From contig MCFE01000283.1 in assembly GCA_002104905.1 (NCBI GenBank), forward strand, positions 39,449-103,448: DNA of 64,000 bases. The letters run 5' to 3'. The notes below the pieces were generated by a model. It was given only the letters and a program-made list of their open reading frames with translations, did not search any database and had not been told where the DNA came from. Shown here piece after piece: positions 25,219-48,264 of the stretch. Each line of letters starts with the position of its first letter. Positions within the stretch are counted from its first letter, which is position 1. The position numbers were made by a program, and so were the translations under genes. Source of the stretch: Basidiobolus meristosporus CBS 931.73. Lineage: Eukaryota > Basidiobolomycota > Basidiobolomycetes > Basidiobolales > Basidiobolaceae.

Positions 25219-25575
25219 CAAATAATATGGGTAATTAAGTGCAGTCGTCGGTACATTCAGTGTCACTACAGGATAAGTATACTTCGAGTCCTGATTAGCA
25301 CAATCATCGCCACATAGGATAAGGGCTCCCTTCAACTTCCGGTGTGGAGTAGATCTCCTCTTGTGCGGGCTGAATCATAATAATGGGGTAATCAGAGTGT
25401 TCAGCCCCCTTCAGTTTGGCGTACTCAGATGCACTGGCTGAACCTTCTACTTCGAGGTTGGGCCTGCTTGAAGTTAACACTAAGACTTTTGTCACTAATG
25501 GTGCTAATAGTGTTCAGATAGCCATGCTTTCTGGTCACGGTGGTGAACACTTGACGCAACGTTGGTACTTGGTCA
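25219..25575 (-). pseudogene. Family B relic (first in array)
   Basis: Minus-strand frames match family B piecewise: HGGEH region (VFTTVTRKH equivalent at about 25530-25560), LEVEGSASASEYAKLKGAEH (25400-25460), and the C-terminal Cys repeat region with internal deletions. The signal peptide and N-terminal Cys region are missing. It corresponds to a B-prime copy at the left edge of the array. Confidence 0.7.
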
Positions 25576-25659
25576 AAGACAGAACCCTAAATATAGCTCA
25601 GTATACTATCGAATGATGGCAGTAAAGATATTAATTCATCCGTAATCCCACAAAGTAAC

Positions 25660-25775
25660 TACAGGCTTCTTTATCACGAGAGTAGCTTAGCATTCTACGG
25701 CAATGGAATTAAGAACTACGTAAGAACGACGCCATTCCTGTGTGCTCACCTCAAGCCATAGTATGAATCATTGTG
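25660..25775 (+). promoter_or_regulatory. Conserved array spacer element (TATA-ATG-GTAAG motif), copy 1
   Basis: aagaactacgtaagaacga at 25710 followed by cattcctgtgtgctcacctc is repeated in each array unit (32371, 36341, 40135, 43640), with a relic at 51581. Here the ATG is replaced (gcaatggaattaag) and 12 bp of the downstream part are missing, so this is a degenerate copy. The function is unknown. Confidence 0.4.
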
Positions 25776-26055
25776 GTTTATCTCTTCACAACCGCAAATG
25801 CCATTCCAAAGTGGAATTGAAGAGAAATGTTTATTTACTTTTCTTCATGTACTGAAGTGATTGGTCGCCTGGATTACGGTGTTAATCAACACCTATTCAC
25901 TGATCATTGCAATGAAAGTGAAACGCTGATTAACTTTACTCACCTTTGCTGCATAGTTTAGTAAACTGGGTTTGGTTGCTGATGATCGCTGATGAATCTA
26001 GCAAAGCATACATAAAAGCAACTGTTTGCCTTCCAGTGTGTCATCAAGAGCCAAC

Positions 26056-26457
26056 ATGCAACGCACTTTACGCATTCTATCCGCCTTTGTATTCCTATTC
26101 GGTGTATCTTATGCATCGCCCATTGCAACGTATGACAACCAGCAAGTAGACCAGGATCCGTGGACTTCGACAGTGAACCATTAATGCCATATACACTCAA
26201 CATACTATCAACTAGAGTCTCCAGACGCCTATCCATTGTTGGACAACGCTCAGACTAATTCTGCACAGAATGCTGAGGCACTTTCCAACCAGAATCAATA
26301 TGAGCAAGTGCAGCAAGTAGATCAGACATTGTACCAACCATCTGCGTCGACATATGCGCCATCATTTACTCCCGATGAGGATGACACTCAAGACTCGAGT
26401 GACGACGACAATCAGCCATCGTGTAAACGTAGACGTGGATACAGAGGCGGCTTTTGA
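26056..26457 (+). pseudogene. Family A pseudogene, frameshifted
   Basis: It starts with the family signal peptide (MQRTLRILSAFVFLFGVSYA) and then small deletions near 26150-26180 shift the frame to a TAA after STVNH. From 26236 a second frame carries the rest of family A: LLDNAQTNSAQNAEALSNQN, DQTLYQP, the acidic DEDDTQDSSDDD stretch and a shortened tail (CKRRRGYRGGF) lacking the second Cys. Upstream sequence matches the promoters of intact A copies, including cataaaag at about 26012. Confidence 0.85.
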
Positions 26458-27050
26458 TGAAATCGGATCGTGTAAACACTAGTTTGGCATTCATAATAAT
26501 CCTATCAAATAATTGCTATTTCTGCAAGCTATCAAACGCACATTTCTTCTGCAAGCAAGATTATACCAACTGACATCAGGAAGAAATAGCGGAGACGTGA
26601 CCACAGGGATGAGTGGAATGAGGATCAACAGAAACAATCAAGTATAGATAGGAATACGCAGCACTCTTCTGTCAGCCATATATGTTCAGAGCATCATGAT
26701 AGAGAACAATAATGAACATTCAATAGGTACCAGCATTCTGGTAACGACTCCTCACATGATAGTGTGAATCATTTTGGTTTCTATAAATGGTTAAATTACT
26801 AAAATGGAATGTGGTGAGTAGTTGTGGTGAGCAACAGATGGATGATGATATAAGCAATGTAGATCGATGGCACATAGGTTCAATTGGCTGTGCATTGTTT
26901 TTATCCTAATTTTTGTCCTTTGATGATTGGCCACATAGAATAGCTATCAACATAGGATTAGCTTCACTCAACTGAGCTTCGATTGCTGATGATCGTTGAT
27001 AAATCTTGTCCATCAAACATAAAGCAACTGTTTACATTACAGTGTGTAAC
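26458..27050. other. Array spacer between A and A-prime
   Basis: Repeated in each unit (29151-29636, 33237-33662, 40955-41404). It carries cattcataataa-type sequence close to the A stop codon, a block tgagtggaatgag…, a ttggcc(a/g)ca block and an upstream piece of the A-type promoter (gctgatgatcgttgataaat). No gene is seen. Confidence 0.5.
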
Positions 27051-27408
27051 ATGCAACGTAATTTCCGCATCTTATCCACCTTAGTATTCCTATTCGGTGT
27101 ATCCTGTGCATCGCCCATTGCTACATATGGTAGCCAACAAGTAGACCTAGGTGTCCCGGTGGACTATGGGGACTGAACCATCGATGCCATATGCACCGAC
27201 TGACTACCAGCTGGAGTCCCCAGTCACCTATCCCTTGTTGGTCAATGTTCAAACTGATTCCGCACTAAATGCTCAGGCACTTTCCAACCATCTACGTCAA
27301 CATATGTGCAATCATTTACCCCAGGCGAGGATGAGATCCAAGACTCAAGTGACGACGACGATCAGCCATCGTGTACACCGTAGTGGTAGATACAGAGACA
27401 GCTATTGA
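27051..27408 (+). pseudogene. Family A-prime pseudogene
   Basis: ATG and signal peptide (MQRNFRILSTLVFLFGVSCA) are present, followed by a TGA after DYGD. Downstream, the sequence jumps from the first CCAACCA (ALSN) directly to the second CCAACCA, losing the 49 bp that encode the shared core (NQ-x-x-QVQQVDQTLYQ), which also shifts the frame. The tail sequence (GRYRDSY in another frame) is retained. The same 49-bp deletion is seen in the A-prime copies at 29637, 33663 and 44215. Confidence 0.85.
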
Positions 27409-28071
27409 TAAGAATAGGTTTAATACCATTGTGATCCCAGTATAATAAATAAGAAAATGTATTGTAAAATCGACATCACTCTAGTTTCCCTATTGATGTA
27501 AGCTATCAAATGCACGCAATTCTTCCGCGAACCAGTTTCTGACAATAAACACCAGGAAAAAGCCACAAAAGAGACATGACCAAAGGGATGGGTGGAACAA
27601 CGGCGAGTATCGGCAGAGATTGAGGTAAGGGAAAGAGCCGAACAAGCACCAATTTTCAAAATTACAATAAGAATGCATATTAGTTATGTGCTGGTAATGG
27701 TAGTGAGCAATAGTTAGGATTTCGTATTTTATCGCTCTGCTGGTGTTCATTGCTAAATTCACTCGGGAACATATAGCATGGGAACCATTATCACATGGTT
27801 ACAACATTGATGGTAGCAATAGTTCATTAACTTTGATGAACTCACACTTTATCAGATTGAAAAGCAGCATTCGCTCTACCATCATCGGCTCAATCGCATT
27901 GATATCGCGTAGTTTATATGGTTACAGCACGATAAATACACTGATAAATACACCAATGTATACCTAATATATACACATATGCTTTTGATATTTCAGCTGT
28001 AGTGTGGTAATTCACGGATTACGGCTGATGATGTTTCATATTAATATTAGGTAGCCTAATGATATATTTAT
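27409..28071. other. Array spacer A-prime to C; family B gene missing
   Basis: The left part (27626-27740) is the standard A-prime to B spacer (taagggaaagagccgaacaa; also at 34225, 37335, 41660). At about 27743 it joins ttcattgctaaattcactcg…aacatatagcatgggaacca, which is the upstream promoter of a family B gene (compare 30855-30900). The B coding sequence that should lie between is gone, so this unit lost B by a deletion that left its TATA region. Confidence 0.65.
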
Positions 28072-28447
28072 TTAATCAATGTATCGATTCCCACTGAAAT
28101 ATCTGATCTTGAAGTACTTATATGCAGACCTCTTGTACTTCTTCTGGCCTCCACCGTAGCCACGGGTGGCTGGCTGAGTGATGATGATCTGGGGCTGTTG
28201 CTGCTTAGGCTGATAGAGGGTTTGGTTGATAACCTGCGCTTGGTCAAACTGATTAGAGTTCGACAGGGCATCAGCATCACTGAACGAGTGAACGTTCACT
28301 CTGTCCAACAATGCCTTTCTGGGTTGCATGTCGGCTACATTGAAGTTTGGCATGTTGTAGGATGACTCTGGCTGAGTTGAAGTGTCATCCATTGAGTCCT
28401 CACCTTCGCCCTCATTCTCATCCATATAGTGATCACCCTCGTCCTGT
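28072..28447 (-). pseudogene. Family C pseudogene, 5' truncated
   Basis: The C-terminal 117 codons are open (MDENEGEGEDSMDD…, ALSNSNQFDQAQVINQTLYQP, QKKYKRSAYKYFKIRYFSGN) but homology ends at caccctcgtcctg (28446). There the sequence switches to the spacer that normally precedes gene A (accaaagtggtatagc). The signal peptide, the two N-terminal Cys and the promoter are missing. The core has N for the usual D in DQTLYQP. Confidence 0.85.
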
Positions 28448-28715
28448 CATACCAAAGTGGTATAGCACGCCCAGAATTGAAGAGAAATGTTGATTTATTT
28501 TTCTTGATGTGCTGAAGTGATTGGTCGCTTGAATTACGGTGTTAATCAACTCTTACTCACTGATCATTGCAATGAAAGTGAAATGCTGATTAACTTTACT
28601 CACCTTTGCTTCATAATTTAGTAAACTGGGTTTGGTTGCTGATGATCGTTGATGGATCTAGCAAACCATACATAAAAGCAACTGTTTGCCTTCCAGTGTG
28701 TCATCAAGAGCCAAC

Positions 28716-29150
28716 ATGCAACGCACTTTCCACATTCTATCCGTTTTAGTATTCCTATTCGGTGCATCTTATGCATCGCCCATTGCAACGTATGACAACC
28801 AGCAAGTAGATCAGGGCATCCCGGTGGATTTTGGTGACAATGCCGACAATGATCCATTGATGTCATACACACCAACATACTATCAACTAGAGTCTCCAGA
28901 CACCTATCCATTGTTGGACAACGCTCAGACTAATTCTGCACAGAACGCTGAGGCACTTTCCAACCAGAATCAATTTGAGCAAGTGCAGCAAGTAGATCAG
29001 ACATTGTACCAACCATCTGCACCGACATATGTGCAATCAAATACTCCCGACGAGGATGACACTGAAGACTCGAGTGACGACGACAATCAGCCATCGTGCA
29101 AACGTTGTCAACGACGCTACCGTAGACGTGGATACAGAGGCAGCTCTTGA
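28716..29150 (+). CDS. Family A secreted protein, 144 aa
   Basis: This is an intact single-exon gene. The ATG at 28716 is the first in frame and gives a good signal peptide (residues 1-20, cleavage after SYA). The mature protein has a Tyr/Pro/Asn/Gln-rich region, a core at about 80-100 (ALSNQNQFEQ then DQTLYQP), an acidic stretch at 112-126 (DEDDTEDSSDDD) and a basic Tyr tail at 127-144 with two Cys (SCKRCQRRYRRRGYRG). A TATA-like cataaaag lies 38-45 bp upstream and AATAAA is at 29188-29193. The tail contains dibasic sites that a Kex2-type protease could cut. The family is not recognised from known proteins. Secretion is well supported; function is unknown. Confidence 0.85.
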   Translation: MQRTFHILSVLVFLFGASYASPIATYDNQQVDQGIPVDFGDNADNDPLMSYTPTYYQLESPDTYPLLDNAQTNSAQNAEALSNQNQFEQVQQVDQTLYQPSAPTYVQSNTPDEDDTEDSSDDDNQPSCKRCQRRYRRRGYRGSS

Positions 29151-29636
29151 TTCAATCAGATCATGTAAACACTAGTTTGGCATTCATAATAAATCCCATC
29201 ATATAATCGCTATTTCTGCAAGCTATAAAACACACACATTTCTTCTGCAAACAAGATTATAACAACTGATATCCGGAAGAAACAGCGGAGACGTGACCAC
29301 TGGGATGAGTGGAATGAGCATCATGAACATTCTGGCAATGAACCCTTAAACAATAGTGTGAATCATTTTGGTTTTGTACCCTCCAATTTGCGAGCAATAT
29401 TGAACAAACTACTAAAATGAAATAGTGGTGAGCAATCGTGGATAGCAATAAATGGATGATGGTATAGCTAATGAAATACGTAGATCGATGATACATGAGT
29501 TAAATTGGCTGTGGATTGTTTTTATTGATGATTGGCCACCTAGAATAGCTATCAACTTAGCTGAGCTTCGGCCGCTGATGATTGTTGATAAAACAAAAGC
29601 AACTTTTTGTATTCCAGTGTGTAACTAAGTGCCAAT

Positions 29637-29960
29637 ATGCAACGTAATTTCCGCATTTTATTCACCTTGGTATTCCTATTTGGTGTATCCTGTGCATCGC
29701 CTATTGTTACATATGGCAACCAATAAGTAGACCAGGGTGTCCAAGTGGACTATGAGACTGAACCATCGATTCCATATGCACCGACAGATTGTCAGCTAGA
29801 GTTCCCAGTCACCTATCGTTGTTGGACAATGTTTAAACTAACTCCGCACAGAATGCTCAGGCACTTTCCAACCATCTACGTCGACATATGTGTAACCATT
29901 TACTCCCGACGAGGATGAAGACCAAGACTTGAGTGACGATGACGGTCAGCCACACTCTAG
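29637..29960 (+). pseudogene. Family A-prime pseudogene
   Basis: It starts MQRNFRILFTLVFLFGVSCA and then stops at a TAA in ggcaaccaataag, a stop shared with the copies at 33663 and 44215 (intact A genes have CAGCAA here). The 49-bp core deletion between CCAACCA repeats is present. Homology ends soon after gacgatgacggtcagcc, before the Cys tail. Confidence 0.85.
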
Positions 29961-30262
29961 GATGTCCGATCTCCATATTGACTAAGCCCTTGTTGAGCTT
30001 ATTAAATGAGCCACCCACTACCTCCAAGCAGGACTTAAAGACGTGCATAGCCGAGCTTTACCAGTTTCTTACCCCTCTCCTGAATTGGTGGCTGGACTTC
30101 GGGTCATCAGAGGGAAGTATGGAGATTGGCGTGGTGTTGAGTTTGTCAAACGCTCTTGTTCCCATATTTCGTAATGGCTATATCTCTGCAATCACATATG
30201 AGACGAAAAATAAAATGAATAATGTAACTTTATTGGATTTGGACTTAAGTGCAGTCTTTGGT
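29961..30262. other. Array spacer A-prime to B
   Basis: Matches the corresponding spacers before 34775, 37830 and 42080 (gggtcatcagagggaagt…, gaataatgtaactttattgg). It contains the 3' untranslated region of the B gene; the minus-strand poly(A) signal is within ttcattttatttt-type sequence. No gene is seen. Confidence 0.5.
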
Positions 30263-30841
30263 TCATTGAGTGTCTTCCATGGGCTCAGTATACTGTGAGT
30301 TCTGATTAGCACAGTCATCGACACATTGAACATCCTCCATGGGCTCAGTGTACTGTGCATCTTGGTTAGAGCATCCTTCAGCGCATTGGGTGTCCACTAC
30401 TGGTGTGGAGTATGTCTCATCTTGTGCTGGCTGAATTATAACAGTGGGGTAATTGGTGCCATCTTCTGAGTGTTCAGCATCCTTCTGTTTGGCGTACTCG
30501 GATGCGCTGGCTGAGCCTTCTACTTCGAGACTAGGGCCTGCTTGAAACTGAACATCGAGACTCTTGTCACTGTTGGCGTTGGCAGTGTTCAGATTGTCAT
30601 GCTTTCTGGTCACGGTGGTGAACACCTGACGCAACAATGGCACTTGGACGTTTGGCGTTTCAACAGTGGGCTGAACCTGGACTTGCTGGTAGCAGTTGCT
30701 TGCTTGGTCTGAGCATGAATACCTGCGATAACGGACTCTTCTATGCTCACGGTTGCATGATTCGGAGCATGGGACTGGAGCAGCAACGGCGGCTTGAAGA
30801 GAGGCAAGGCCCAAAATCAATGATACAATGAATGCACGCAT
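30263..30841 (-). CDS. Family B secreted Cys-rich repeat protein, 192 aa
   Basis: This is an intact single-exon gene. The signal peptide is residues 1-20 (MRAFIVSLILGLASLQAAVA). The mature N-terminus has four Cys (25, 29, 43, 50) around an Arg/Tyr-rich segment (RRVRYRRYSC). The middle holds VPLLRQVFTTVTRKHDNLN and AGPSLEVEGSASASEYAKQK. The C-terminus (149-192) is two 20-aa repeats of the form [VE]D-x-QC-x3-C-x2-Q-x2-QYTEPM plus a partial third (EDTQ), adding four Cys. A TATATA box is at 30883-30888, about 45 bp upstream of ATG. The gene lies tail-to-tail with the A genes to its left and head-to-tail with C. No known domain. An extracellular structural or host-facing role is inference. Confidence 0.88.
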   Translation of the reverse strand: MRAFIVSLILGLASLQAAVAAPVPCSESCNREHRRVRYRRYSCSDQASNCYQQVQVQPTVETPNVQVPLLRQVFTTVTRKHDNLNTANANSDKSLDVQFQAGPSLEVEGSASASEYAKQKDAEHSEDGTNYPTVIIQPAQDETYSTPVVDTQCAEGCSNQDAQYTEPMEDVQCVDDCANQNSQYTEPMEDTQ

Positions 30842-31176
30842 CTTTGAGAACTACTGAGTTCATTGCCAAGTACACTCGGGAATATATAGCATGGGAACCA
30901 GTATAACATGGTTACAACGTTGATGGTAGCAATAGTTAGTTAACTTGGATGAACTCACACTTTGTCAGATTGAAAATTAGCATTCGCTCTACCATCATCG
31001 GCTCAATCGCATTGATATCGCGTAGATTATATGGTTACAGCACGATAAATACACTGATAAATACACCAATATATACGCATATGCTTTTGACAAAATTTCA
31101 GCTTTGGTGTGGTAATTCACGAAGCACGGCTGATGATGTTTCATATTAATATAAGGTGGCCAAATGAAATGTTTAT

Positions 31177-31731
31177 TTAATCAATGTATCGATTCCCACT
31201 GAAATATCTGATCTTGAAGAACTTATGTGCCGACCTCTTGTACTTCTTCTGGCCTCCACCATAGCCACGGGTGACTGGCTGAGTGATAATGATCCGGGGC
31301 TGTTGCTGCTTAGGCTGATAGAGGGTTTGGTCGATAACCTGCGCTTGGTCAAACTGATTAGAGTTCGACAGAGCATCAGCATCACTGGATGAGTGAGCGT
31401 TCACTCTGTCCAACAAGGCCTGTCTTGGTTGCATATCGGCTATATTGAAGTTGGGCATGTTGTAGGATGACTCTGGCTGAGTTGTAGTGCCATCCATTGA
31501 GTCCGCACCTTCGCCTTCATCTTCGCCCTCATTCTCATCCATATAGCTATCACCCTCATCCTGTTCCGGCTGATAGTCATATGCAGGCGATTGAGTTTCT
31601 TGGTAGCAAGGACTTATTTGCTCCCCGCACAAGTTGTTCTCGTTGCTAACCTGAGAAGAGGTATCTTCTGTGGCGGGTAATGCATGGATAGATGCAAAGT
31701 GCAGAGCGAACAAAGCGAGAGTAAGCTGCAT
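31177..31731 (-). CDS. Family C secreted protein, 184 aa
   Basis: This is an intact gene. The signal peptide is residues 1-17 (MQLTLALFALHFASIHA). Two Cys lie at 35 and 42. A long acidic region at about 55-85 (DEGDSYMDENEGEDEGEG) is followed by the core at 120-140 (ALSNSNQFDQ then DQTLYQP), the same motif as family A. A Gln/Ile patch (KQQQPRIIITQP) and a basic aromatic tail (QKKYKRSAHKFFKIRYFSGN) complete it. A TATAAA (minus strand) is at 31768-31773, about 40 bp upstream of ATG. Its overall acidic-core-basic plan is like family A although the flanking sequences are unrelated. Function is unknown. Confidence 0.88.
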   Translation of the reverse strand: MQLTLALFALHFASIHALPATEDTSSQVSNENNLCGEQISPCYQETQSPAYDYQPEQDEGDSYMDENEGEDEGEGADSMDGTTTQPESSYNMPNFNIADMQPRQALLDRVNAHSSSDADALSNSNQFDQAQVIDQTLYQPKQQQPRIIITQPVTRGYGGGQKKYKRSAHKFFKIRYFSGNRYID

Positions 31732-31918
31732 TTTGATGAATAGCGTAAAACTAGTCGTAAGCTCACTTTATAGTGGTATTTGGCGTAGTCTATTATACTG
31801 CATCCTATATCTGACTCACTTGAAGCCATGAATTCACATGCCATGTCCAGCCGTGGTTGACTTTCCACTAAGTACTTGTGAAGATATGGGCTCATATGGA
31901 TAATCGAGATTTATTGAA

Positions 31919-32070
31919 TTAAGTGCAGTTATCGGTACATTAAGTGTCCTCCATAAAGTCTGCAGTCGGTGAGTCCTGCTAAGCACAATCATTACAACAC
32001 TGAGCATATTCCGTGGGCTCAGTGTATTGAAGCAGCAACGACGGCCAAAAGAAAAAGTAGCTACGTCATT
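31919..32070 (-). pseudogene. Family B-prime relic
   Basis: Short minus-strand homology to the C-terminal repeat region of family B (gtgtcctccataaagtctgc, tccgtgggctcagtgtatt) is joined directly to a piece of the signal-peptide region (agcagcaacgacggcc). Most of the gene is deleted. An equivalent relic occupies the same place at 39500-39790. Confidence 0.65.
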
Positions 32071-32370
32071 GAGCATTTGGAAAGCCATATGTTAATAGTC
32101 GCAGTGATAAATTCACATTAATACCCTAAGCAACCACTATTCCTATGAATCTACAATTTGAAATCAACGCAAATCTAGGTTCATGTATCGACTTGAAGTT
32201 CATCTGCGGCGTTAGAGATCCCTTGGATAGAGGCGCTGTATCATCTTGTGGTGGTTGATGCAATGCTTGATGCTAAATCGTTAATCTAGCTCAGTATGCT
32301 ACCGAATGATGACTGGTAAAATATGAATTCATTCATAATCCCATAATACGCATTAAAATAGCTACAGGTC

Positions 32371-32494
32371 GCTATATAACCCGAGCAGGTTACAATTCTA
32401 CGACTATGAAATCAAGAACTACGTAAGAACGAAGCCATTCCTGTGTGCTCACCTCAAGCCATAGCTTGAAAAGGCGTAGTATGAGTCATTTTGG
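32371..32494 (+). promoter_or_regulatory. Conserved array spacer element, copy 2
   Basis: It contains, in order, a TATA box (gctatataac, 32371), ATGAAATCAAGAACTAC at about 32405, a GTAAGAAC that looks like a splice donor, CTCACCTCAAG, and CATAG/GCGTAG acceptor-like sites, then tatgagtcattttgg. The order is conserved in four units. It could be a short spliced transcript or the promoter and leader of a lost gene. Confidence 0.4.
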
Positions 32495-32783
32495 TTTGTC
32501 TCTTCACAACTGCTAATGTCATTCCCAAATCGTGCGGCAGCGCAGAATTGAAGAATGTTTATTTATTTTTCTTCATGTACTGAAGTGATTGGTCGCCGGA
32601 ATTACGGTGTTAATCAGCACCTATTCACTGATCATTACAATGAAAGTGAAATGCTGATTAACTTTACTCACCTTTGCTTCATAATTTAGTAAGCTGGGTT
32701 TGGTAGCTGATGATCGCTGATGAATCTAGCAAACCATACATAAAAGCAACTGTTTGCCTTCCACTGCGTCATCAAGAGCCAAC

Positions 32784-33236: not shown

Positions 33237-33662
33237 TTCAATCGGGTCATGATAACACTAGTTTGGCATTCAAAATAAATCCTATAAAATAATCGCTACT
33301 TCTGTAAGCTATCCAACACACACATTACACCAACTGACATCAGAGGAGACGTGACCACAGGGATGTGTGGAATGAGCAATGCCTCCTCACATGAAACATT
33401 TTGGTTTAGTACCCTCCAATTTGCGAGCAATATTGAATAAACTAAAATGGAATAATGGCAAGCAGTCGTGGTGAGCAATAAATGGATGATGGTATAGGTA
33501 ATGAAATACGTAGATCGATGATACATAGGCTCAATTGGCTGTGGATTGTTTTTATTGATGATTGGCCGCATAGAATAGCTATCAACTGAGCTTCGGCTGC
33601 TGATGATTGTTGATAAAAACAAAAGCAACTTTTTGTATTCCAGTATGTAACTAAGTGCCAAT

Positions 33663-34025
33663 ATGCGACGTAATTTCCGAATTTTATCCACGCATTTTGT
33701 CCACATTGGTATTTCTATTCGGTGTATCCTATGCATTGCCCATTGCTACATATGGCAATCAATAAGTAAACCAGAGTGTCCAAGTGGACTATGAGACTGA
33801 ATAATCGATGCCATATGCGCCGGCAGGTTACCAGCTGGAGTCCCCGATCACCTATCCCTAGTTGAACAATGTTGAAACTAATTCCGTACAGAATGCTCGG
33901 GCACTTTCCAACCATCTACGTCGACATTTGTACAATCATTTACCCCAGACGAGGATGAAAACCAAGACTTGGGTAACCACGATGATCAGCCATCGTGTAG
34001 ACGTAGATACAGAGACTGCTATTGA
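33663..34025 (+). pseudogene. Family A-prime pseudogene
   Basis: The signal peptide region has an internal duplication (ttttatccacgcattttgtc), the TAA in ggcaatcaataag is present, and so is the 49-bp core deletion between CCAACCA repeats. The tail (cgtagatacagagactgct) is of the RYRD type seen in A-prime at 27051 and in the chimeric A at 36758. Confidence 0.85.
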
Positions 34026-34774
34026 TGAGAACAGGTTGTTGGTATTTCTACATTTTATTACTTACATGTAATCGATGTCACACCAGTTTCCCTATTTATG
34101 TAGACTATCAAGTACACACAATTATTGTGTAAATAAGCTTTCAAATATGAACACTGGAAAAAAAGATACATAAGAGATGTGCCCACAGGGATGGGTGGAA
34201 CAAGGGCGAGTATCAACAGAGATCGAAGTAAGGGAAAGAGCCGATCAAGCACCAATTTTCTCAATTACAATAAGAATCATTTGTCTGTAGTGCATATTAG
34301 TTATGTGCTGGTAATGGTAGTAAGCAATAGTTGGGCTTTGGTATTTTCTCACTCTGCTGGTACCAGTGAGTATAAGTCAAAAGCACCTGACTATTGGATT
34401 TGACACACACCGAATTCTCCTTATTTATCATGTATCCTACCCTCTATAATAGCGGACTCATGTTAGAACTTCTTGGAATGGTGATATGCTCAAGGAGACC
34501 CGATTTCCATATTGACTAAACCCACATAAAACCTATTGAATAAGCTACCCATGACCTTCAAGCAGTACTTCAAGACGTTTCTTACCCTTTTCCTGGATTG
34601 GTCACTGGACTTCGGGTTATCAGAGGGAAATGCGGAAATTGGCATGGTGTTGAGTTAGTAAAATACCCTTATTTTCTTGATGGTAACGGCTATATTTCTG
34701 CTATCCCATACGAGGCGAAAAATAACATGAATAATGAAATTTTATTGGATTTGGGCTCAAGTGCAGTCGTTGGT
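34026..34774. other. Array spacer A-prime to B, long form
   Basis: This is the fullest version of this spacer, including a block (34235-34460) also present at 37340-37560 and partly at 27630 and 41660, with words such as gtgctggtaatggtagt and ttctccttatttatcatg. Short frames in it are not conserved. No gene is seen. Confidence 0.5.
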
Positions 34775-35609: not shown

Positions 35610-36060
35610 TTTCATTTTAATATAAGGTGGTCAAGTGAAATGATGTTCATTGTGTCTATTTCCACTATAATATCCGAGCCGATCTCTTGTATTCCTTTCA
35701 GTATCTTGATCAGCGCATCCTTCAACGCATTGGGTGTCTACTACTGGTGTAGTGTATGTCTCATCTTGTGCAGGCTAAGTCACAACAATGGGAAATTAGA
35801 GTCATCGTCTGATTGCTCAGCACTCTTCAGTTTGGCGTACTCGGATGCGCTGGCTGAACCTTCTACTTCGAGGCTAGGGCCAGCTTGGTATTAAGACTCT
35901 TTTCCCTATCAGCGTTAGCAGTGCTCAGATTGCCATGTTTTTTGGTAACAGTGGTGAACACTTGACATAATAATGGCACTTGGACATTCGACGTTTCAAC
36001 AGTATGCAGAACTTGGACTTGCTGTTAACAGTCACTTGCTCGGTCGGGGCATTAGAAACT
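35610..36060 (-). pseudogene. Family C 3' stub joined to family B-prime relic
   Basis: At 35610-35700 the sequence resembles only the 3' end of a family C gene (tgtctatttccactataata…gatctcttgtattcc). It then switches, at about 35700, to family B homology running to 36060 (ggcgtactcggatgcgctgg, gtggtgaacacttgac). That frame has stops (aggctaagtc). So in this unit C was deleted together with the 3' end of B-prime. No intact C exists between 31731 and 38741. Confidence 0.7.
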
Positions 36061-36340
36061 AGCAGTTGAAGTGCTGTGATAAATACACATTAATACCCTT
36101 AACAATCACTATTCTTACGGCTCTTCAGTTTCAGATCAACACAACTCGAAGATTCGTCTGCTACACTGGAAGATCACTTGGACAGAGGTGATGGTGAGTC
36201 ACATTTTTGCTAAGCTAAGCTGATTGGTGCAATGCATAATGCTACATCGTAAATTCAACTCAGTATACTATCGACTGAAGGCTGGTGAAGATATTAATTC
36301 AGTCATGATCCCATAACACTCACAAAGATTGTTACAGGTT

Positions 36341-36464
36341 GTTATATAACCAGAGTAGCCTAGCGTTCTACGACTATGAAATCAAGAACTACGTAAGAAT
36401 GAAGCCATTCCTGTGTGCTCACTTCAAGCCATAGCTTGAAAAGGCGTAGTATGAGTCATTTTGG
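36341..36464 (+). promoter_or_regulatory. Conserved array spacer element, copy 3
   Basis: Same order as copy 2: gttatataaccagag, then ATGAAATCAAGAACTAC, GTAAGAATG, CTCACTTCAAG and CATAG, GCGTAG, tatgagtcattttgg. Splicing from GTAAG to CATAG would leave a short open frame that differs between units after the acceptor, so coding capacity is doubtful. Confidence 0.4.
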
Positions 36465-36757
36465 CGAGTCCCTTCGCTACCGTGTTTGTCATTCCAAAGT
36501 GGTATGCCAAGCCCAGAATTGAAGACGAATGTTTATTTATTTTTCTTGATGTACTGAAGTGATTGGTCGCTTGGATTACGGTGTTAATCAGCTTTTACTC
36601 ATCGATCATTACAATGAAAATGAAATGCTGATTAACTTTACTCACCTTTGCTTCATAATTTAGTAAACTGGGTTTGGTTGCTGATGATCGCTGATGAATC
36701 TAGCAAACTATACATAAAAGAAACTGTTTGCCTTCCAGTGTGTCATCAAGAGCCAAC

Positions 36758-37192
36758 ATGCAACGCACTTTCCGCATTCTATCCGCCTTAGTATTCCTAT
36801 TCGGTGTATCTTATGCATCGCCCATTACAACGTACGGCAACCAGCAAATAGACCAGGGCATCCCAGTGGACTTTGGTGGCAACACCGACAATGAACCATC
36901 AATGTCATACACTCCAACATACTATCAACTAGAGTCCCCAAACGCCTATCCATTGTTGGACAATGTGAAGACGAATTCCGCACAGAACGCTCAGGCACTT
37001 TCCAACCAGAATCAGTACGACCAGGTGCAGCAAGTAGATCAAACATTGTACCAACCATCTGCGCCGACATTTGTGCAATCGTTTACTCCCGACGAGGATG
37101 ACGCTGAAGACTCGAGTGACGACGACGATCAGCCATCGTGTAAACGTTGTCAACGACGCTACCGTAGACGTAGATACAGAGACAGCTATTGA
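36758..37192 (+). CDS. Family A secreted protein, 144 aa, A/A-prime chimera
   Basis: Intact frame with the A-type start, signal peptide (…FGVSYA), core (ALSNQNQYDQ, DQTLYQP) and acidic stretch. The last codons (RRYRRRRYRDSY) and the downstream sequence (tgatatgaataggtttaata) match the A-prime copy at 27051 rather than other A genes, and no separate A-prime follows. The gene therefore looks like the product of recombination between A and A-prime that removed the spacer. A cataaaag box is present upstream. Confidence 0.85.
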   Translation: MQRTFRILSALVFLFGVSYASPITTYGNQQIDQGIPVDFGGNTDNEPSMSYTPTYYQLESPNAYPLLDNVKTNSAQNAQALSNQNQYDQVQQVDQTLYQPSAPTFVQSFTPDEDDAEDSSDDDDQPSCKRCQRRYRRRRYRDSY

Positions 37193-37829
37193 TATGAATA
37201 GGTTTAATAAATAAGATAATGCAATATATAACCGACATCACTCCATCTTCCGACAATTAACACTAGGAAAAAATCACAAAAGAGACATGACCACAGGGAT
37301 AGGTGGAACAATGGCGAGTATCAACAGATGTTGAAGTAAGGGAAAGAGCCGATCAAGCACCAATTTTCACAATTACAATAAGAATGCATATTAGTTATGT
37401 GCTGGTAATGGTAGTGAGCAATAATTGGGCTTTGGTATTTCCTCACTCTGCTGATACCAATAAGTATGAGTCAAAAGTTCCAGATTATTGGATTTGACAC
37501 GCTCCGAGTTCTCCTTACATTATCATGTATTCTACCCTCTATAATAGCTGACTCTAGCTTGGAATGGCGATACACTCAAGGAGACCCGATTTGCATATTG
37601 ACTAAACCCATAAAAAACTTATTGAATAAGCTACCCATTACCTTCCAGCAGTACTTCAAGACGTTTCTTACCCTTCTCCTGGATTAGTCGCTGGACTTTG
37701 GGTCATCAGTTTGTCAAATACCCTTGTTTTCATGATGGTAACGACTATATTTCTGTTATCACGTAAAAGGCGAAAAACAAAATGAATAATGGAACTTTAT
37801 TGGATTTATGCTCAAGTGCAGTCGCTGGG
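37193..37829. other. Array spacer A to B
   Basis: Same spacer as 34026-34774 with small deletions; it includes the B 3' untranslated region at its right end. Nothing coding is conserved. Confidence 0.5.
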
Positions 37830-38408
37830 TCATTGAGTGTCTTCCATGGACTCAGTATACTGTGAGTCCTGATTATCACAGTTGTCGCCACATTGAACAT
37901 CTTCCATGGGCTCAGAGTACTGTGTATCTTGGTCAGAGCATCCTTCGATGCATTGGGTGTCCACTACTGGTGTGGAGTATGTCTCATCTTGTGCAGGCTG
38001 AATTATAACAGTGGGGTAACCAGAGCCATCTTCGGAGTGCTCAGCACCCTTCTGTTTGGCATACTCTGATGCGCTGGCTGAACCTTCTACATCGAGGCTA
38101 GGGCCTGCCTGAAACTGAGCATCGAGACTCTTGTCACTGTTGGTGTTGGCAGTGTTCAGATTGTCATGCTTTCTGGTCACGGTGGTGAACACCTGACGCA
38201 ACAATGGCACTTGGACGTTTGGCGTTTCAACAGTGGGCTGAACCTGGACTTGCTGGTAGCAGTCGCTCGCTTGGTCCGAGCATGAATACCTGCGATAACG
38301 GACTCTTCTATGCTCACGGTTGCATGATTCAGAGCATGGGACTGGAGCAGCAACGGCGGCTTGAAGAGAGGCAAGGCCCAAGATCAAGGATACAATGAAT
38401 GTACGCAT
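37830..38408 (-). CDS. Family B secreted protein, 192 aa
   Basis: Intact. It starts MRTFIVS where the others have MRAFIVS. The eight-Cys pattern is complete and the repeats read CIEGCSDQDTQYSEPM and CGDNCDNQDSQYTESM, so the YTEPM repeat ends are slightly diverged. A TATATA box is at 38449-38454. Confidence 0.88.
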   Translation of the reverse strand: MRTFIVSLILGLASLQAAVAAPVPCSESCNREHRRVRYRRYSCSDQASDCYQQVQVQPTVETPNVQVPLLRQVFTTVTRKHDNLNTANTNSDKSLDAQFQAGPSLDVEGSASASEYAKQKGAEHSEDGSGYPTVIIQPAQDETYSTPVVDTQCIEGCSDQDTQYSEPMEDVQCGDNCDNQDSQYTESMEDTQ

Positions 38409-38740
38409 CTGTAAGAACTACTGAGTTCATTGCCAAGTACACTCGGGAATATATAGCATGGGAACCAGTATAACATGGTTACAACGTTGATGGTAGCAAT
38501 AGTTAGTTAACTTGGATGAACTCACACTTTGTCAGATTGAAAATTAGCATTCGCTCTACCATCATCGGCTCAATCGCATTGATATCGCGTACTTTATTTG
38601 GTTACAGCACGATAAATACACTGATAAATACACCAATATATACGCATATGCTTTTGATATTTCAGCAGTAGTGTGGTAATTCACGAACCACAGCTGATGA
38701 TGTTTCATATCAATATTAGGTGACCAAATGAAATGTTTAT

Positions 38741-39295
38741 TTATTCAATGTATCGATTCCCACTGAAATATCTGATCTTGAAGTACTTATGTGCCGACCT
38801 CTTGTACTTCTTCTGGCCTCCACCATAGCTACGGGTGGCTGGCTGAGTGATAATGATCTGAGGCTGTTGCTGCTTAGGCTGATAGAGGGTTTGGTCGATA
38901 ACCTGCGCTTGGTCAAACTGATCAGAGTTCGACAGAGCATCAGCATCACTGGATGAATGAGCGTTCACTCTGTCCAACAAGGCCTGTCTTGGTTGCAGGT
39001 CGGCTATATTGAAGTTGGGCATCTCGTAGGATGATTCTGGCTGAGTTGTAGTGCCATCCATTGAGTCCACACCTTCGCCTTCATCTTCACCCCCATTCTC
39101 ATCCATATAGTGATCACCCTCGTCCTGTTCCGGCTGATAGTCATCTGCAGGTGATTGAGTTTCTGGGTAGCAAGGACTTACTTGCTCCCCGCACAAATTG
39201 TCACCGTAGCTCACCTGAGAAGAGGTATCTTCTGTGGCAGGGAATGCATGGATATAAGCAAAGTACAAAGCGAGTAAAGTGAGAGTAAGCTGCAT
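38741..39295 (-). CDS. Family C secreted protein, 184 aa
   Basis: Intact. The signal peptide is MQLTLTLLALYFAYIHA and two Cys follow (LCGEQVSPC). The acidic region has DHYMDENGGEDEGEG, the core ALSNSDQFDQ and DQTLYQP, and the tail KKYKRSAHKYFKIRYFSGN ends …RYIE. A TATAAA (minus) is at 39331-39336. It is about 330 bp upstream of the family B start, in the same orientation. Confidence 0.88.
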   Translation of the reverse strand: MQLTLTLLALYFAYIHAFPATEDTSSQVSYGDNLCGEQVSPCYPETQSPADDYQPEQDEGDHYMDENGGEDEGEGVDSMDGTTTQPESSYEMPNFNIADLQPRQALLDRVNAHSSSDADALSNSDQFDQAQVIDQTLYQPKQQQPQIIITQPATRSYGGGQKKYKRSAHKYFKIRYFSGNRYIE

Positions 39296-39499
39296 TTTGA
39301 TGAATATCGTAAAACCAGTCGTAAGCTCACTTTATAGTGGTATTTGACATAGTCTACTATACTACACCCTGTATCAGACTCACTTGAGGCCAGGAATTCA
39401 CATGCTATGTCCTGCTTTTGTTGCCCATCAACTAACTACCTGGTTTAGCTATTAGCAATCAAGTTAGATTGGCGTTAAGAGCAAATGATATGGATAATC

Positions 39500-39790
39500 G
39501 AGATTTATTGAATTAAGTGCAGTTGTCGGTACGTTGAGTGTCGTCCATAAAGTCAGCATACAGTAAGTCCTGATTAGCACAGTCATTGCCAAACTGAGCA
39601 ACTTCCATGGGCTCAGTGTTTTGTATATCCTGATCAACGCATCCTTCAACGTACAATCGTACTTGGGCATTCGAAGTCTCTACAGTTGGCAGAACTCGGG
39701 CCTGCTGGTGGCAGTTACTTGCTCAATCGGAGCATGACGAACTACGATAATGATTTGGAGCGTGGAATTGGAGCAACAACGATGGCCAAA
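39500..39790 (-). pseudogene. Family B-prime relic, internally deleted
   Basis: C-terminal repeat sequence (cttccatgggctcagtgttt, gatcaacgcatccttcaac) jumps directly to the N-terminal half (acttgggcattcgaagtctc, ggagcatgacgaactacgat). The middle of the gene and the signal peptide are missing. It corresponds in position to 31919-32070. Confidence 0.7.
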
Positions 39791-40134
39791 AGAAAAAGTA
39801 GCTACATCATTGAAGATTTGGAAAGCCACATGCTGATAGTCATAGTGATAGGTACACATTAATACCCTTAGCGATCACTATCCCTATGAATCTACGATCT
39901 CAAATCAACGCAACTCTAGGTTCATCTGCTGCAATAGAGATCGCTTGGATAGAGGTGATATATGAAGCCAGCAAAGTGATGGCGAGTTACATTTTTGCTA
40001 AGCGGACTTGAGGTGGTCGAAGCAATGCATAATGCTAAATCGTAAATATAGTTCAGTATACTATCGACTGATGGCCGGTGAAGATGTTAATTCGTTCATA
40101 ATCCCAACATACTCATAAAAATAGCTGCAGGGTA

Positions 40135-40255
40135 CTATATAATCAGAGTAGCTTAGTAGCCTTCGACGATGAAATCGAGAACTACGCAAGAACGACGCGA
40201 TTCCTGTGTGCTCACCTCAAGCCATAGCTTGAAAAGGCGTAGTATGAGTCATTTT
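40135..40255 (+). promoter_or_regulatory. Conserved array spacer element, copy 4
   Basis: ctatataatcagag, then gATGAAATCGAGAACTAC, here followed by GCAAGAACG instead of GTAAGAACG, then CTCACCTCAAG, CATAG and GCGTAG. The donor-like GT has changed to GC, the most common non-canonical donor. Confidence 0.35.
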
Positions 40256-40519
40256 AGTTTGTCCCTTCCAAAGTGGTAGAGCAAGCCCAGAATTGAAGAC
40301 GAATGTTTATTTATTTTTCTTGATGTACTGAAGTGATTGGTCGCCGGGATTACGGTGTTAATCAACACCTATTCACTGATCATTGCAATGAAAGTGAAAT
40401 GCTGATTAACTTTACTCACCTTTGCTTCATAATTTAGTAAACTGGGTTTGGTTGCTGATGATCGCTGATGAATCTAGCAAAGCAACTGTTTGCCTTCCAG
40501 TGTGTCATCAGGAGCCAAC

Positions 40520-40954
40520 ATGCAACGCACTTTCCGCATTCTATCCGCCTTAGTATTCCTATTCGGTGTATCTTATGCATCACCCATTGCAACATATGAC
40601 AACCAGCAAGTAAGCCAGGGTATCCCAGTGGACTTTGGCGGCAATGCCGACAATGAACCATTAGTGTCATATGCACCAACATACTATCAACTAGAGTCCC
40701 CGAACGCCTATCCATTGTTGGACAACGCTCAGACTCATTCTGCACAGAACGCTCAGGCACTTTCCAACCAGAATCAATTTGAGCAAGTGCAGCAAGTAGA
40801 TCAGACATTATACCAACCATCTGCACCGACATATGTACAATCAATTACTCCCGACGAGGATGATACTCAAGACTCGAGTGACGACGACGATCAGCCATCG
40901 TGCAAACGTTGTCAACGACGCTACCGTAGAAGTAGATACAGCGGCCGCTTTTGA
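40520..40954 (+). CDS. Family A secreted protein, 144 aa
   Basis: Intact. Signal peptide …FGVSYA, core ALSNQNQFEQ and DQTLYQP, acidic stretch DEDDTQDSSDDDDQ, tail CKRCQRRYRRSRYSGRF. The promoter differs: tctagcaaagcaactg lacks the 12 bp (accatacataaa) that carry the TATA-like box in the other A genes, so expression may be reduced. An AATAAA follows at about 40991. Confidence 0.82.
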   Translation: MQRTFRILSALVFLFGVSYASPIATYDNQQVSQGIPVDFGGNADNEPLVSYAPTYYQLESPNAYPLLDNAQTHSAQNAQALSNQNQFEQVQQVDQTLYQPSAPTYVQSITPDEDDTQDSSDDDDQPSCKRCQRRYRRSRYSGRF

Positions 40955-41399
40955 CTCAATCGGATCATGTAAACATTGGTTTGGCATTCATAATAAATCC
41001 TGTCATATAATCGCTATTTGTGCATGCTATAAAACACGCACATTTCTTCTGCAAATAAGATTATAACAACTGATATCCGGAAGAAACAGCGGAGATGTGA
41101 CTACAGGGATGAGTGGAATGAGCATCAACCGAAATAACCAAACATAGATATGGATACGCAGTGCCTTTCGGTCAGGCATATTCGACGTTAAAACCTTTAT
41201 GCTCAGAACATCTGACAACTCCTCACATGACAATGTGAATTATTTTGGTTGTGTCCCCTCTGAATTGCGAATAATAACGAATAAGTTACTAAAATGGAAT
41301 AGTGGTGAGTAGTCGTGGATTGTTTGATGATTGGCCGCATAGAATAGCTTTTAACATAGGATTGATTTAACTCAAGTTAGTTCAATAATATAGTAAACT

Positions 41400-41525
41400 A
41401 AACTTTGTATTCCTATTCAGTGTATCCTATGCATCACCCATTGCTACATATGGTAACCAACAAGTAGGCCCCAGTGGACTTTGGTGGCAGCACTGTGACT
41501 GAACCATCGATGTCACACCAGTTTC
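41400..41525 (+). pseudogene. Family A-prime relic, 5' part only
   Basis: tttgtattcctattcagtgt, catcacccattgctacatat and aaccaacaagtaggccccag match the signal-peptide and early region of A-prime. The ATG and first codons are lost. After tgaaccatcgatgtcaca the sequence joins the spacer (ccagtttccctattcatgta), so the core and tail are gone. Confidence 0.75.
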
Positions 41526-42079
41526 CCTATTCATGTAAGCTATCAAGTACACACAGTTCTTCTGTAAGCAAGCTTTCAAATATGGACACTAGGAAAAAAA
41601 GATACATAAGAGATGTGCCCACAGGGATGGGTGGAACAAACGAGTATCAACAGAGATCGAAGTAAGGGAAAGAGCCGATCAAGCGCTAATTTTCTTAATT
41701 ATAATTAGTGGTGCATATTATATGTGCACTCAGGATACCATGTTTTCTGGTAATGGTAGTGAGCAGTAGTTGGACTTTTTGAGATAGCGATACACTCTAG
41801 GATGCCCGATCTCCATATTGACTAAGCCCTCGTTGAGCATATCAAATAAGCCTCTCACTACCTTCAAGCAGTACTTCAAGACGTTTCTTACCCTTCTCCT
41901 GAATTGGTGACTGGACTTCGGATCATCAGAATGAAGTGTGGAAATTGGCTTGGTTTTTGGTTTGTCAAACGCTCTTTGCTCCCATGCTGTTAATGGCTAT
42001 ATTTCTGCTCACATATGAGGCGAAAAATAAAATGAATAATGGAACTTTATTGCATTTGGGCTCAAGTGCAGTCGTTGGG
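41526..42079. other. Array spacer A-prime to B
   Basis: Shortened version of 34026-34774, ending in the B 3' untranslated region. No gene is seen. Confidence 0.5.
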
Positions 42080-42658
42080 TCATTGAGTGTCTTCCATGGG
42101 CTCAGTATACTGTGGGTCCTGATTAGCACAGTTATCGCCACATTGAACATCTTCCATGGGCTCAGTGTACTGTGTATCTTGGTCAGAGCATCCTTCGATG
42201 CATTGGGTGTCCACTACTGGTGTGGAGTATGTCTCATCTTGCGCAGGCTGAACCATAACAATGGGGTAACCAGAGCCATCTTCGGAGTGTTCAGCACCCT
42301 TCTGTTTGGCGTACTCGGATGCGCTGGCTGAGCCTTCTACTTCGAGGCTAGGACCTGCTTGAAACTGAGCATTGAGACTCTTGTCACTGTTGGCGTTGGC
42401 AGTGTTCAGATTGTCATGCTTTCTGGTCACGGTGGTGAACACCTGACGCAACAATGGCACTTGGACGTTTGACGTTTCAACAGTGGGCTGAACCTGGACT
42501 TGCTGGTAGCAGTTGCTTTCTTGGTCCGAGCATGAATACCTGCGATAACGGACTCTTCTATGCTCACGGTTGCATGATTCGGAGCATGGGACTGGAGCAG
42601 CAACGGCGGCTTGAAGAGAGGCAAGGCCCAAGATCAAGGATACAATGAATGCACGCAT
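42080..42658 (-). CDS. Family B secreted protein, 192 aa
   Basis: Intact. Differences are few: SLNAQFQ, GYPIVMVQPAQ. Repeats read CIEGCSDQDTQYTEPM and CGDNCANQDPQYTEPM, identical to the 34775 copy in this part, which suggests recent gene conversion or duplication. A TATATA box is at 42700-42705. Confidence 0.88.
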   Translation of the reverse strand: MRAFIVSLILGLASLQAAVAAPVPCSESCNREHRRVRYRRYSCSDQESNCYQQVQVQPTVETSNVQVPLLRQVFTTVTRKHDNLNTANANSDKSLNAQFQAGPSLEVEGSASASEYAKQKGAEHSEDGSGYPIVMVQPAQDETYSTPVVDTQCIEGCSDQDTQYTEPMEDVQCGDNCANQDPQYTEPMEDTQ

Positions 42659-43009
42659 CTTTGAGAACTACTGAGTTCATTGCCAAGTACACTTGGGAAT
42701 ATATAGCATGGGAACCATTATAACATGGTTACAACGCTGATCGTAGCAATAGTTAGTTAACTTTGATGAACTCACACTTTATCAGATTGAAAATTAGCAT
42801 TCGCTCTGCCATCATCGGCTGAATCGCATTGATATCGCGTACTTTATTTGGTTACAACACGATAAATACACTGATAAATACACCAATATATACCCTAATA
42901 TATACACATATGCTTTTGATATTTCAGCAGTAGTGTGGTAATTCACGAATCACGGCTGATGATGTTTCATATTAATCTAAGGTGGCCAAATGTCATATTT
43001 ATTTATTCA

Positions 43010-43356
43010 ATGTATCTGTTCTTGAAGTACTTATGCGCAGATCTCTTGTACTTCTGGCGTCCAACATGGCTACGGGTGGCTGGCTGGGTGATGACGATCT
43101 AAGGGCTGTTGCTGCTCAGGCTGATAGAGGGTTCGGTCGATAACCTGCGCTTGGTCAAACTGATTGGAGTTCGACAGAGCATCAGCACCACTGGATGAGT
43201 GAGCGTTCACTCTGTCCAACAAGGCCTGTCTTGGTTGCCTATCGACTATATTGCAGTTTGGCATGTTGTAGGATGACTCTGGCTGAGCTGAAGTGTCTTC
43301 TATCGAGTCCTCACCTTCGCCTCCATCTTTGCCCTCATTCACATCCTTATAGTTGT
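43010..43356 (-). pseudogene. Family C pseudogene, truncated and frameshifted
   Basis: The core is present (ALSNSNQFDQAQVIDRTLYQP) but a deletion near 43100 shifts the frame after EQQQP, and the last residues (FSGNRY) are deleted: the sequence ends at tattcaatgtatctgttctt. The 5' end breaks at catccttatagttgtg (43356), so the signal peptide is lost. Confidence 0.85.
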
Positions 43357-43639
43357 GATAATTTTATGATGAATACACATTGATACCCTTGGCTATCACT
43401 ACTCTTATGGCTCTATAATTTCAACTCAACACAACCCCCGGTTAATGCTCCGACTTGAAGACTTATCTGGTGCAATAGAGGTCAATTGGGTAGAGGCGAT
43501 GTATGAAGTGATGGAGAGTTGCATTTTTGCTAAACCCACCTAAGGTGGTTGATGCAATGCATCGTAAATCTGGCTCAGTATACTATCGGCTGATGGCTGG
43601 TGAAGATATCCCAAAACACTCACAAAGATTGCTACAGGT

Positions 43640-43764
43640 TGCTATATAACCAGATTAGCTTAGCATTCTAAAACTATGAAATCAAGAACTACGTAAGACC
43701 GAAGCCATTCCTGTGTGCTCACCTCAAGCCATAGCTTGAAGAGGCGTAGTATGAGTTATTTTAG
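43640..43764 (+). promoter_or_regulatory. Conserved array spacer element, copy 5
   Basis: gctatataaccagatt, ATGAAATCAAGAACTAC, GTAAGACCG, CTCACCTCAAG, CATAG and GCGTAG are all present. It is the last well-preserved copy; a weak relic is at 51581-51640. Confidence 0.4.
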
Positions 43765-44214
43765 TTTGTCCCTTCCAAAGTGGTATAGCAAGATCAAAAT
43801 TGAAGAGGATTGTTTATTTATTTTTCTTGATGTCATAATAAATCCCATCACAAAATCGCTATATCTGTAGGCTATCCAACACATACAAACAAGATTACAC
43901 CAACTGATATCAGGAAGAAACAGCGTAGGACAAGCAATAAGAATACTTCTGTCAGGCATATTAGACGTCAAAACCTAATCATGGACATTCATGTAAACAC
44001 TCCCATGATTCATTTTCGTTTTGTTCCCACAAAATTACGAATAATAACAGATAAACTACTAAAATGGAATGGTGGTGAGCTATCGTGGTGAGCTATCGTG
44101 GTGAGCAATAGATGGAAGATTGTTGAGGCAATGAAGAACGTGGATCAATTGGCTGTGGATTGCTTGATGATTGGGCACCTCGAATAGCTATCAACATAGG
44201 ACTCAACTGTCATC

Positions 44215-44503
44215 AATTTCCGCCTCTTTTCTAATCACTTCATCCTATTCGGTGTGTATTTTGCCACACCCATAGCTACACATGACAACCAATAAGTAGA
44301 CCATGGGACTGAACCATCGATGCCATCCCTGGTTGGACAATGTTTAAACTAACTCCGCACAGAATGCTCAGGCACTTTCCAACCATCTACGCTGACATAT
44401 GTGCAATCATTTACTCCCGACAAGGATGAAAACCAAGACTCGATTGAAGATGACGATCAGACATCATGTTACCGTAGACGTAGATACAGAGACAGCTAAT
44501 GAT
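44215..44503 (+). pseudogene. Family A-prime pseudogene (last in array)
   Basis: The start is degraded (ttccgcctcttttctaatca), the TAA in gacaaccaataag is shared with other A-prime copies, and the 49-bp core deletion is present (ctttccaaccatctacgctg). The tail is of the RYRDS type. Confidence 0.8.
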
Positions 44504-44879
44504 ATGAACAGGCCTAATACTATTGTGATCCCACTACAATAAATAGGTTCATGGATCATGTAGTCATTACTACTCCTATTCATGTAAGCAATTAGCAAGT
44601 AGAGCAGTCTCCGTACAATGCCATATATGCCGAAATTCTGGAGTCCATCGCTTCACAGCTCTCAGGAACTTGACCAGATATTGTATCAACTATCTGCGCC
44701 AGCTGACTTATCCATTTTGGCTACTCAGAAAGGTACTACTGGCTGATATTGCGGGACTGCTTTATTCTGCTCTAACCTTACTCTTGTTCCTGTGCTGGCA
44801 TGGATCATACTTCTGCTATTACATATTAAGCAAGCAATATATAATCAACGCAAATCTAATGGCTTTAAGGTCATTCCAC

Positions 44880-45070
44880 AGACTCAATATAGTGCTCATT
44901 TTGTTTAGCACACTCATTGCCATATTGGGCATCTTCCATGGGCTCTGTGAACTGTGTATCTTGGTTAGAGCATCCATCAATATAACAGGTGTCTTCATCT
45001 GCTATGGAGTATGTCCTATATTGCACAGGCTGATCCATAACAATGAGGAAATATTTGTCATACCTGGATG
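44880..45070 (-). pseudogene. Family B relic (right edge of array)
   Basis: gcatcttccatgggctctgt, tgtatcttggttagagcatc and tggagtatgtcctatattg match the C-terminal repeat region of family B. It is more diverged than the other relics and CpG-poor. It marks the right end of recognisable array sequence. Confidence 0.6.
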
Positions 45071-47546: not shown

Positions 47547-47548
47547 TA

Positions 47549-48262: not shown

Positions 48263-48264
48263 TA

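Follow-up and report, generated by a model that had tools for sequence, protein, structure and literature searches.

The window analysed here is a 64,000-nucleotide stretch of contig C517 of Basidiobolus meristosporus CBS 931.73 (C517:39449-103448), the right end of which is also the contig end; other contigs are named in the same way. Basidiobolus is a fungus of reptile and amphibian guts. Between about 25.4 and 45.1 kb, the window contains a tandem array of genes for three kinds of small, predicted secreted proteins, here called A, B, and C. A self-repeat search of this part showed repeat families of 3–6 copies each, mostly 2.6–4.5 kb apart (20 largest of 35 families), and together with tblastn it resolved a cassette of the order A(+), A′(+), B(-), C(-), B′(-) with a period of about 4 kb and with losses in single units (Table 1). 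The spacings from A to A were 4068, 3974, and 3762 bp. The periodic cassette array is real, much as described in an initial annotation made from the letters of the window: the five-part organization was borne out by both searches, the four A starts that had been given were exact, and the counts of intact members (four A, four B, and two C) were reproduced by tblastn. All A′ and B′ copies in the window were found to be decayed or fragments (tblastn and self-repeat search). The units also differ in content, as the unit at 34.8 kb does not contain C, the unit at 37.8 kb does not contain A′ and the first unit does not contain B. The conserved spacer of the initial annotation corresponds to about 258 bp of sequence located upstream of A and present in four copies with 67–83% identity to the reference copy (self-repeat family D13). 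The DNA identity from unit to unit within the window was 79.9–88.6% over stretches of more than 1 kb, which is far above chance, and the units are repeated head to tail as in a tandemly amplified cluster of small secreted proteins.

Table 1. Positions of the array members, spacers, diverged paralogues and RNA genes in the window (aa, amino acids)
Feature	Position	Strand	Evidence
Family A, intact, 144 aa	28716..29150	+	tblastn
Family A, intact, 150 aa	32784..33236	+	tblastn
Family A, intact, 144 aa, reference	36758..37192	+	tblastn
Family A, intact, 144 aa	40520..40954	+	tblastn
Family A with one stop, first unit	26056..26427	+	tblastn
A′ relict, 3 stops	27051..27374	+	tblastn
A′ relict, two pieces, stops	29637..29875	+	tblastn
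A′ relict, 3 stops	33691..34029	+	tblastn
A′ fragments	41404..41518	+	tblastn
A′ relict, 2 stops	44218..44469	+	tblastn
Family B, intact, 192 aa	30263..30841	-	tblastn
Family B, intact, 192 aa	34775..35353	-	tblastn
Family B, intact, 192 aa, reference	37830..38408	-	tblastn
Family B, intact, 192 aa	42080..42658	-	tblastn
Family C, intact, 184 aa	31177..31731	-	tblastn
Family C, intact, 184 aa, reference	38741..39295	-	tblastn
Family C without N-terminal third	28072..28446	-	tblastn
Family C, broken	43006..43354	-	tblastn
B′ pieces, left edge of array	25276..25571	-	tblastn
B′ fragment, known only as DNA repeat matching 39488-39623	31894..32029	-	self-repeat family D16
B′ relict, three pieces	35691..36057	-	tblastn
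B′ relict, two pieces	39534..39764	-	tblastn
B′ fragment, right edge of array	44874..45086	-	tblastn
Conserved spacer upstream of A	32248..32505	.	self-repeat family D13
Conserved spacer upstream of A	36218..36475	.	self-repeat family D13
Conserved spacer upstream of A	40011..40268	.	self-repeat family D13
Conserved spacer, last decayed unit	43518..43775	.	self-repeat family D13
Diverged paralogue C2 (54% identity to C), intact, outside array	54679..55203	-	tblastn
Diverged paralogue B2 (62% identity to B), downstream of C2	53829..54326	-	tblastn
SRP (7SL) RNA gene class 1 (SRP-1), 99-100% identical in 14 genome places	63192..63491	+	Rfam search, DNA search
U3 snoRNA gene beside SRP class 1	63719..63944	-	Rfam search
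SRP RNA class 2 (SRP-2), partly deleted, probable relict	50923..51194	+	DNA comparison

The frames of at least 100 aa in the block were A, B, and C, frames overlapping these or the relicts, a frame at 33296–33736 and an edge frame at 45068–45370. None of the five other block frames scanned reached a Pfam cut-off (three frames antisense to B or B′ were outside the scan), and Pfam scans of A, B, C and these five frames detected no transposase, integrase or reverse transcriptase inside a unit. Co-amplification as a block free of housekeeping genes, as proposed in the initial annotation, agrees with the absence of such genes among the frames scanned inside the block. It had also been considered that A, B, and C might be parts of a known transposon. 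Their many copies at dispersed places would fit this, as would the retroelement frames (reverse transcriptase, integrase) and the DDE transposase frame detected by Pfam scan to the left of the array (1194–2003, 17087–18085, and 18326–20071). However, no transposon frame was present among those scanned inside the block, the genes are under purifying selection at the protein level, and the copies have flanking DNA in common on one side, all of which makes a transposon origin extremely improbable.

Hydrophobic N-termini typical of signal peptides were recognized by eye in A, B, and C. No family member scanned reached a Pfam cut-off (five in the first scan and 10 of 10 in the second) and PDB sequence searches gave no useful match for A, B, or C, in line with the earlier failure to recognize the families. 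A PDB profile match of B to a cryptophyte phycocyanin chain (E 0.12), a Pfam match to Evasin far below the cut-off and a match of B2 to the Myticin prepro family (PF10690; E 0.0047, 17.6 bits compared to a cut-off of 28.5) were taken as chance; further PF10690 scores of 14.5, 14.0, and 12.3 bits were also below the gathering cut-off of 28.5. A search of 5.8 billion proteins gave 29 B, 20 A, and 22 C matches from 78, 23, and 79 candidates, respectively. All named homologues were from Basidiobolus, three from B. ranarum (P0021, P0029, and P0068) and the others from B. meristosporus, while three A matches without a name were listed as the window's own; since this search depends on short words in common, it may have overlooked distant homologues in other fungi. 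The families were not found described in the literature searched, with subscription papers mostly outside its coverage and including the available parts of PMC7329392, PMC8778642, PMC7466969, and PMC10386755; in the main text of PMC7466969, which mentions RNA-seq reads of the strain, the word "secreted" occurs 0 times.

The three families had been regarded as different from each other, which was not upheld by profile comparison. A and C were shown to have a 39-residue core including DQTLYQP in common (hhalign 98%, E 2e-13, 39 columns, 54% identity), and B and C showed a weaker likeness over the signal peptide and a CxxQxxxCY motif (hhalign 84%, E 8e-6), with no significant match in the hhalign comparison of A and B. 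Judged from these profiles, A, B, and C are one modular family and not independent families. In addition, contig C566 (L036:1115-2215, minus strand) was found to contain an uninterrupted 366-aa frame (356 aa counted from the likely start) in which B′ is followed by C without a second signal peptide. The B. ranarum protein P0029 (270 aa), known only as a database protein, combines a B core with an A/C core in a single chain. P0015, P0019, P0023, P0024, P0028 and similar long proteins are possibly predicted merges of neighbouring genes and were left uncounted. Distant C-like matches (36–45% identity, mostly in the C-terminal half) were present on contig C916 (L033 and L034), four out of five within open frames of 220–240 aa; none passed the two-motif fusion filter.

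Besides being related, C and B occur as a pair. A same-strand B start was located at most 1200 bp from C, in the order C then B, in 53 out of 59 near-full-length C matches (median 883 bp), compared to a chance expectation of about 0.001 per C for a uniform spread, although the copies are not independent. The six C matches without a paired B were C390:23875, C926:40559, C1015:26387, C356:139383, C232:3523, and C104:477. Diverged C2-B2 pairs are dispersed, the window pair being located at 53.8–55.2 kb, and all 31 C2-type matches taken were open. No promoter motif common to the families is claimed, as k-mers from 14 upstream regions were at or barely above the level of shuffles. On C390, where A and C are divergent, the DNA upstream of C was seen by eye to contain the reverse of the DNA upstream of A.

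Among the near-full-length matches listed with at least 80% identity, which are lower bounds, the frame was open in 33 of the 36 copies of B, 31 of the 35 copies of A, and 18 of the 19 copies of C. The ratio of non-synonymous to synonymous substitution rates (dN/dS) of intact copies was 0.27 for A (n = 27), 0.34 for B (n = 29), and 0.31 for C (n = 16), based on 36 A, 38 B, and 28 C matches of at least 75% identity from eight contigs, from which truncated and short ones were dropped. Regional values were 0.06 for B core2, 0.13 for the A core, 0.17 for the Cys-rich N-terminus of B, 0.20 for the C core, and 0.24 for B core1. No family exceeded 1 over the whole protein, and one of the 18 regions, the A tail, did so. 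This purifying selection, the constant C-B pairing and the natural fusion back the earlier suggestion of selection on the combination. The mean dS differed between the families (A 0.21, C 0.16, B 0.09), and B copies may therefore have been homogenized by gene conversion.

That the array in the window arose as an amplification of its own was not supported. For this comparison, copies that are not alone of their family on a contig were used (25 of the 27 A, all 29 B, and 13 of the 16 C). The closest copy belonged to another array in 23 of the 25 cases for A, in 25 of the 29 for B, and in all 13 for C. Colinear stretches of about 6.9 kb from the window and C136, C772, C851, and C1026 showed 92.6–94.5% identity, compared to the 79.9–88.6% observed within the window. 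Because the arrays resemble each other more than the units do, and because the copies are mostly closest to other arrays, formation of the array probably preceded its copying as a block. If the genome is redundant, some of the arrays may represent homologous chromosomes.

The reading that we favour, tentatively and at a little short of an even chance, is that A, B, and C form a Basidiobolus-restricted modular secreted family, the genes of which are kept and amplified jointly because their products act together outside the cell. It takes as observed the shared core and motif, the C566 fusion frame, the C-B pairing, purifying selection strongest in the cores and the closeness to other arrays. 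The proteins would be exported via the signal recognition particle (SRP)/Sec route, and in the medium or the wall their conserved cores would bind one another, which segregated opposite charges could aid. The mature proteins are predicted to be acidic (isoelectric points 4.2–4.3); A and C contain an acidic stretch and later a basic tail, and B contains a Cys-rich basic N-terminus and an acidic C-terminus. A mixed assembly, e.g., a surface coat, matrix or spore adhesive, might result, for which copy number would then provide dosage. An extracellular function, structural or host-facing, is what we infer from the sequences.

Several points weigh against joint action. The B core was compared to the A/C core as a possible homologue and showed no similarity by hhalign, and the basic tail of A has a dN/dS of 1.11. 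The fusion suggests interaction and is no proof of it: P0014, which resembles the C566 fusion, and P0029 are gene models and a stop interrupts the B part of a related copy on C418, so that the fusion is seen in DNA only at C566. AlphaFold2 gave no usable fold (pLDDT, the per-residue confidence, 45 for B and 53 for C; pTM, the global confidence, 0.10 each; A was outside the prediction), for which the low depth of the alignments (27 and 19 rows) may be responsible instead of disorder. The codon adaptation index was 0.47 for B, 0.42 for C, and 0.35 for A compared to expected values of 0.33, 0.35, and 0.31, with EF1A at 0.85–0.86 and the retroelement frame of the window at 0.47; this moderate adaptation of B and C, and the weak adaptation of A, does not favour a dominant structural protein.

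The proteins could instead be small secreted effectors facing the host or microbes, the amplification of which would allow this gut fungus, an occasional pathogen, to vary how it interacts with the vertebrate gut, arthropods or bacteria. We consider this possible, if on the unlikely side. It would agree with their small size, signal-peptide-like N-termini, lack of a Pfam family and restriction to the genus in the searches made, with the retroelement and transposase frames to the left of the array, and with the location of the array at most about 40 kb from a contig end on all eight array contigs read. However, dN/dS is well below 1 and the cores are among the most constrained parts. A subtelomeric location was not upheld either, since no telomere-repeat runs were found at the eight contig ends read, though telomere repeats occur in the genome. 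Fourfold TTAGGG was found genome-wide 7428 times in forward and 81 times in reverse orientation; telomere runs thus appear nearly always in one contig orientation, which is perhaps a habit of the assembly.

The charge layout would also suit precursors of cationic antimicrobial or signalling peptides, in which acidic pro-parts balance a basic peptide freed by a protease. The basic tails after acidic stretches in A and C, the Cys-rich basic N-terminus of B, the C tail FK[IV]RYFSGNR kept in B. ranarum P0068 and the sub-threshold likeness of B2 to Myticin prepro point in this direction. Such a role is nevertheless doubtful, as the KR of the C tail is KK in P0068 and the Kex2 site thus not conserved, the cores are more constrained than the tails (0.28 for the C tail and 1.11 for the A tail), and the Myticin and Evasin matches are far below their cut-offs.

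The right flank of the array (45.3–57 kb) is partly common to C136, C772, C851, C1026, and C363, and was not found on C640 and C1289 where these were read. The left flank is not common to other arrays, except for scattered matches at 5.3–6.0 and 16.3–16.9 kb. Within the right flank, a foldback element at 47547–48264 with inverted arms of 316 nt (90% complementary) and a likely 3-bp target duplication, seen by eye, is missing from the corresponding position of C1026 and C136.

An SRP RNA gene and a U3 small nucleolar RNA (snoRNA) gene are located near the right end of the window, and a second SRP RNA copy is located between these and the array (SRP-1 and SRP-2; Table 1). In an Rfam search, 26 out of 1015 loose candidates were scored, and each of these 26 matched SRP RNA, 24 of them over the cut-off; diverged copies may thus exist elsewhere. 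A DNA search with the SRP gene of the window, in which 40 out of 46 candidates were scored, gave 42 matches; 25 of them cover at least 286 of the 300 bases. All these 25 near-full-length SRP-RNA-like places are at most 9 kb from a B-family gene (median 1.1 kb), the largest distance (8.9 kb) being that of SRP-1, beside the contig end. Among the shorter matches (n = 17), the ones on C628 and C1150 are on contigs absent from the B listing, as are U3 genes on C20, C732, C317, C154, C805, and C824. Fourteen class-1 copies showed 99–100% identity to the window copy. SRP-1 looks functional, since it is 100% identical to its counterpart on C1050 compared to 96.5% for the DNA between SRP and U3, i.e., a difference of 3.5% in one pair. 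SRP-2 is 95.2% identical to the C1026 copy with flanks at 86–97.5%, is partly deleted and shows drift similar to its flanks; it is a probable relict.

This neighbourhood might reflect a cargo-and-carrier amplicon, in which the secreted cassette was multiplied together with the SRP RNA gene needed for export, SRP RNA genes lie inside secreted-gene clusters and the proteins form a two- or three-component extracellular assembly. We regard this as improbable; the 25 SRP places go back to a small number of linked ancestors and are not independent of each other, for which reason hitchhiking is the cautious reading. A, B, and C may be passengers of segmental duplications or of homologous chromosomes in a redundant genome, with the driver elsewhere, e.g., SRP RNA copy number. 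The flanking DNA included in the copied blocks, the SRP RNA and U3 genes in the same neighbourhoods and the decayed A′, B′ and SRP-2 relicts carried along speak for such a ride, but most listed copies are open with dN/dS well below 1, whereas the neighbouring A′ and B′ decay, which makes it quite unlikely.

These results describe, in an early-diverging fungus of the vertebrate gut, a modular family of predicted secreted proteins that has no Pfam entry. The natural fusion predicts physical partners, and whether secreted genes and SRP RNA genes can be multiplied jointly becomes testable at this locus.

PMC7329392 gives this strain as the one with the most Kex2-processed repeat proteins (KEPs), 43. 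Like KEPs and the precursors of ribosomally synthesized and post-translationally modified peptides, A, B, and C are predicted to be secreted; they differ in having no runs of similar peptides split by Kex2 sites, as no repeated KR- or RR-bounded peptides were seen by eye in the A, B, and C alignments and each protein has one core, although overlap with those 43 KEPs is possible. Myticin prepro proteins resemble them in having a signal peptide and a Cys-rich basic stretch followed by an acidic part, with the weak B2 match, but the score was far below the cut-off. Tandem clusters of small secreted proteins occur in fungi. The array resembles these in its short, tandem and lineage-restricted genes for proteins with signal-peptide-like starts and no known domain, and differs from them in that its families share modules within a fixed cassette, that a natural fusion frame occurs, that the genes are under purifying selection and that several contigs carry related arrays.

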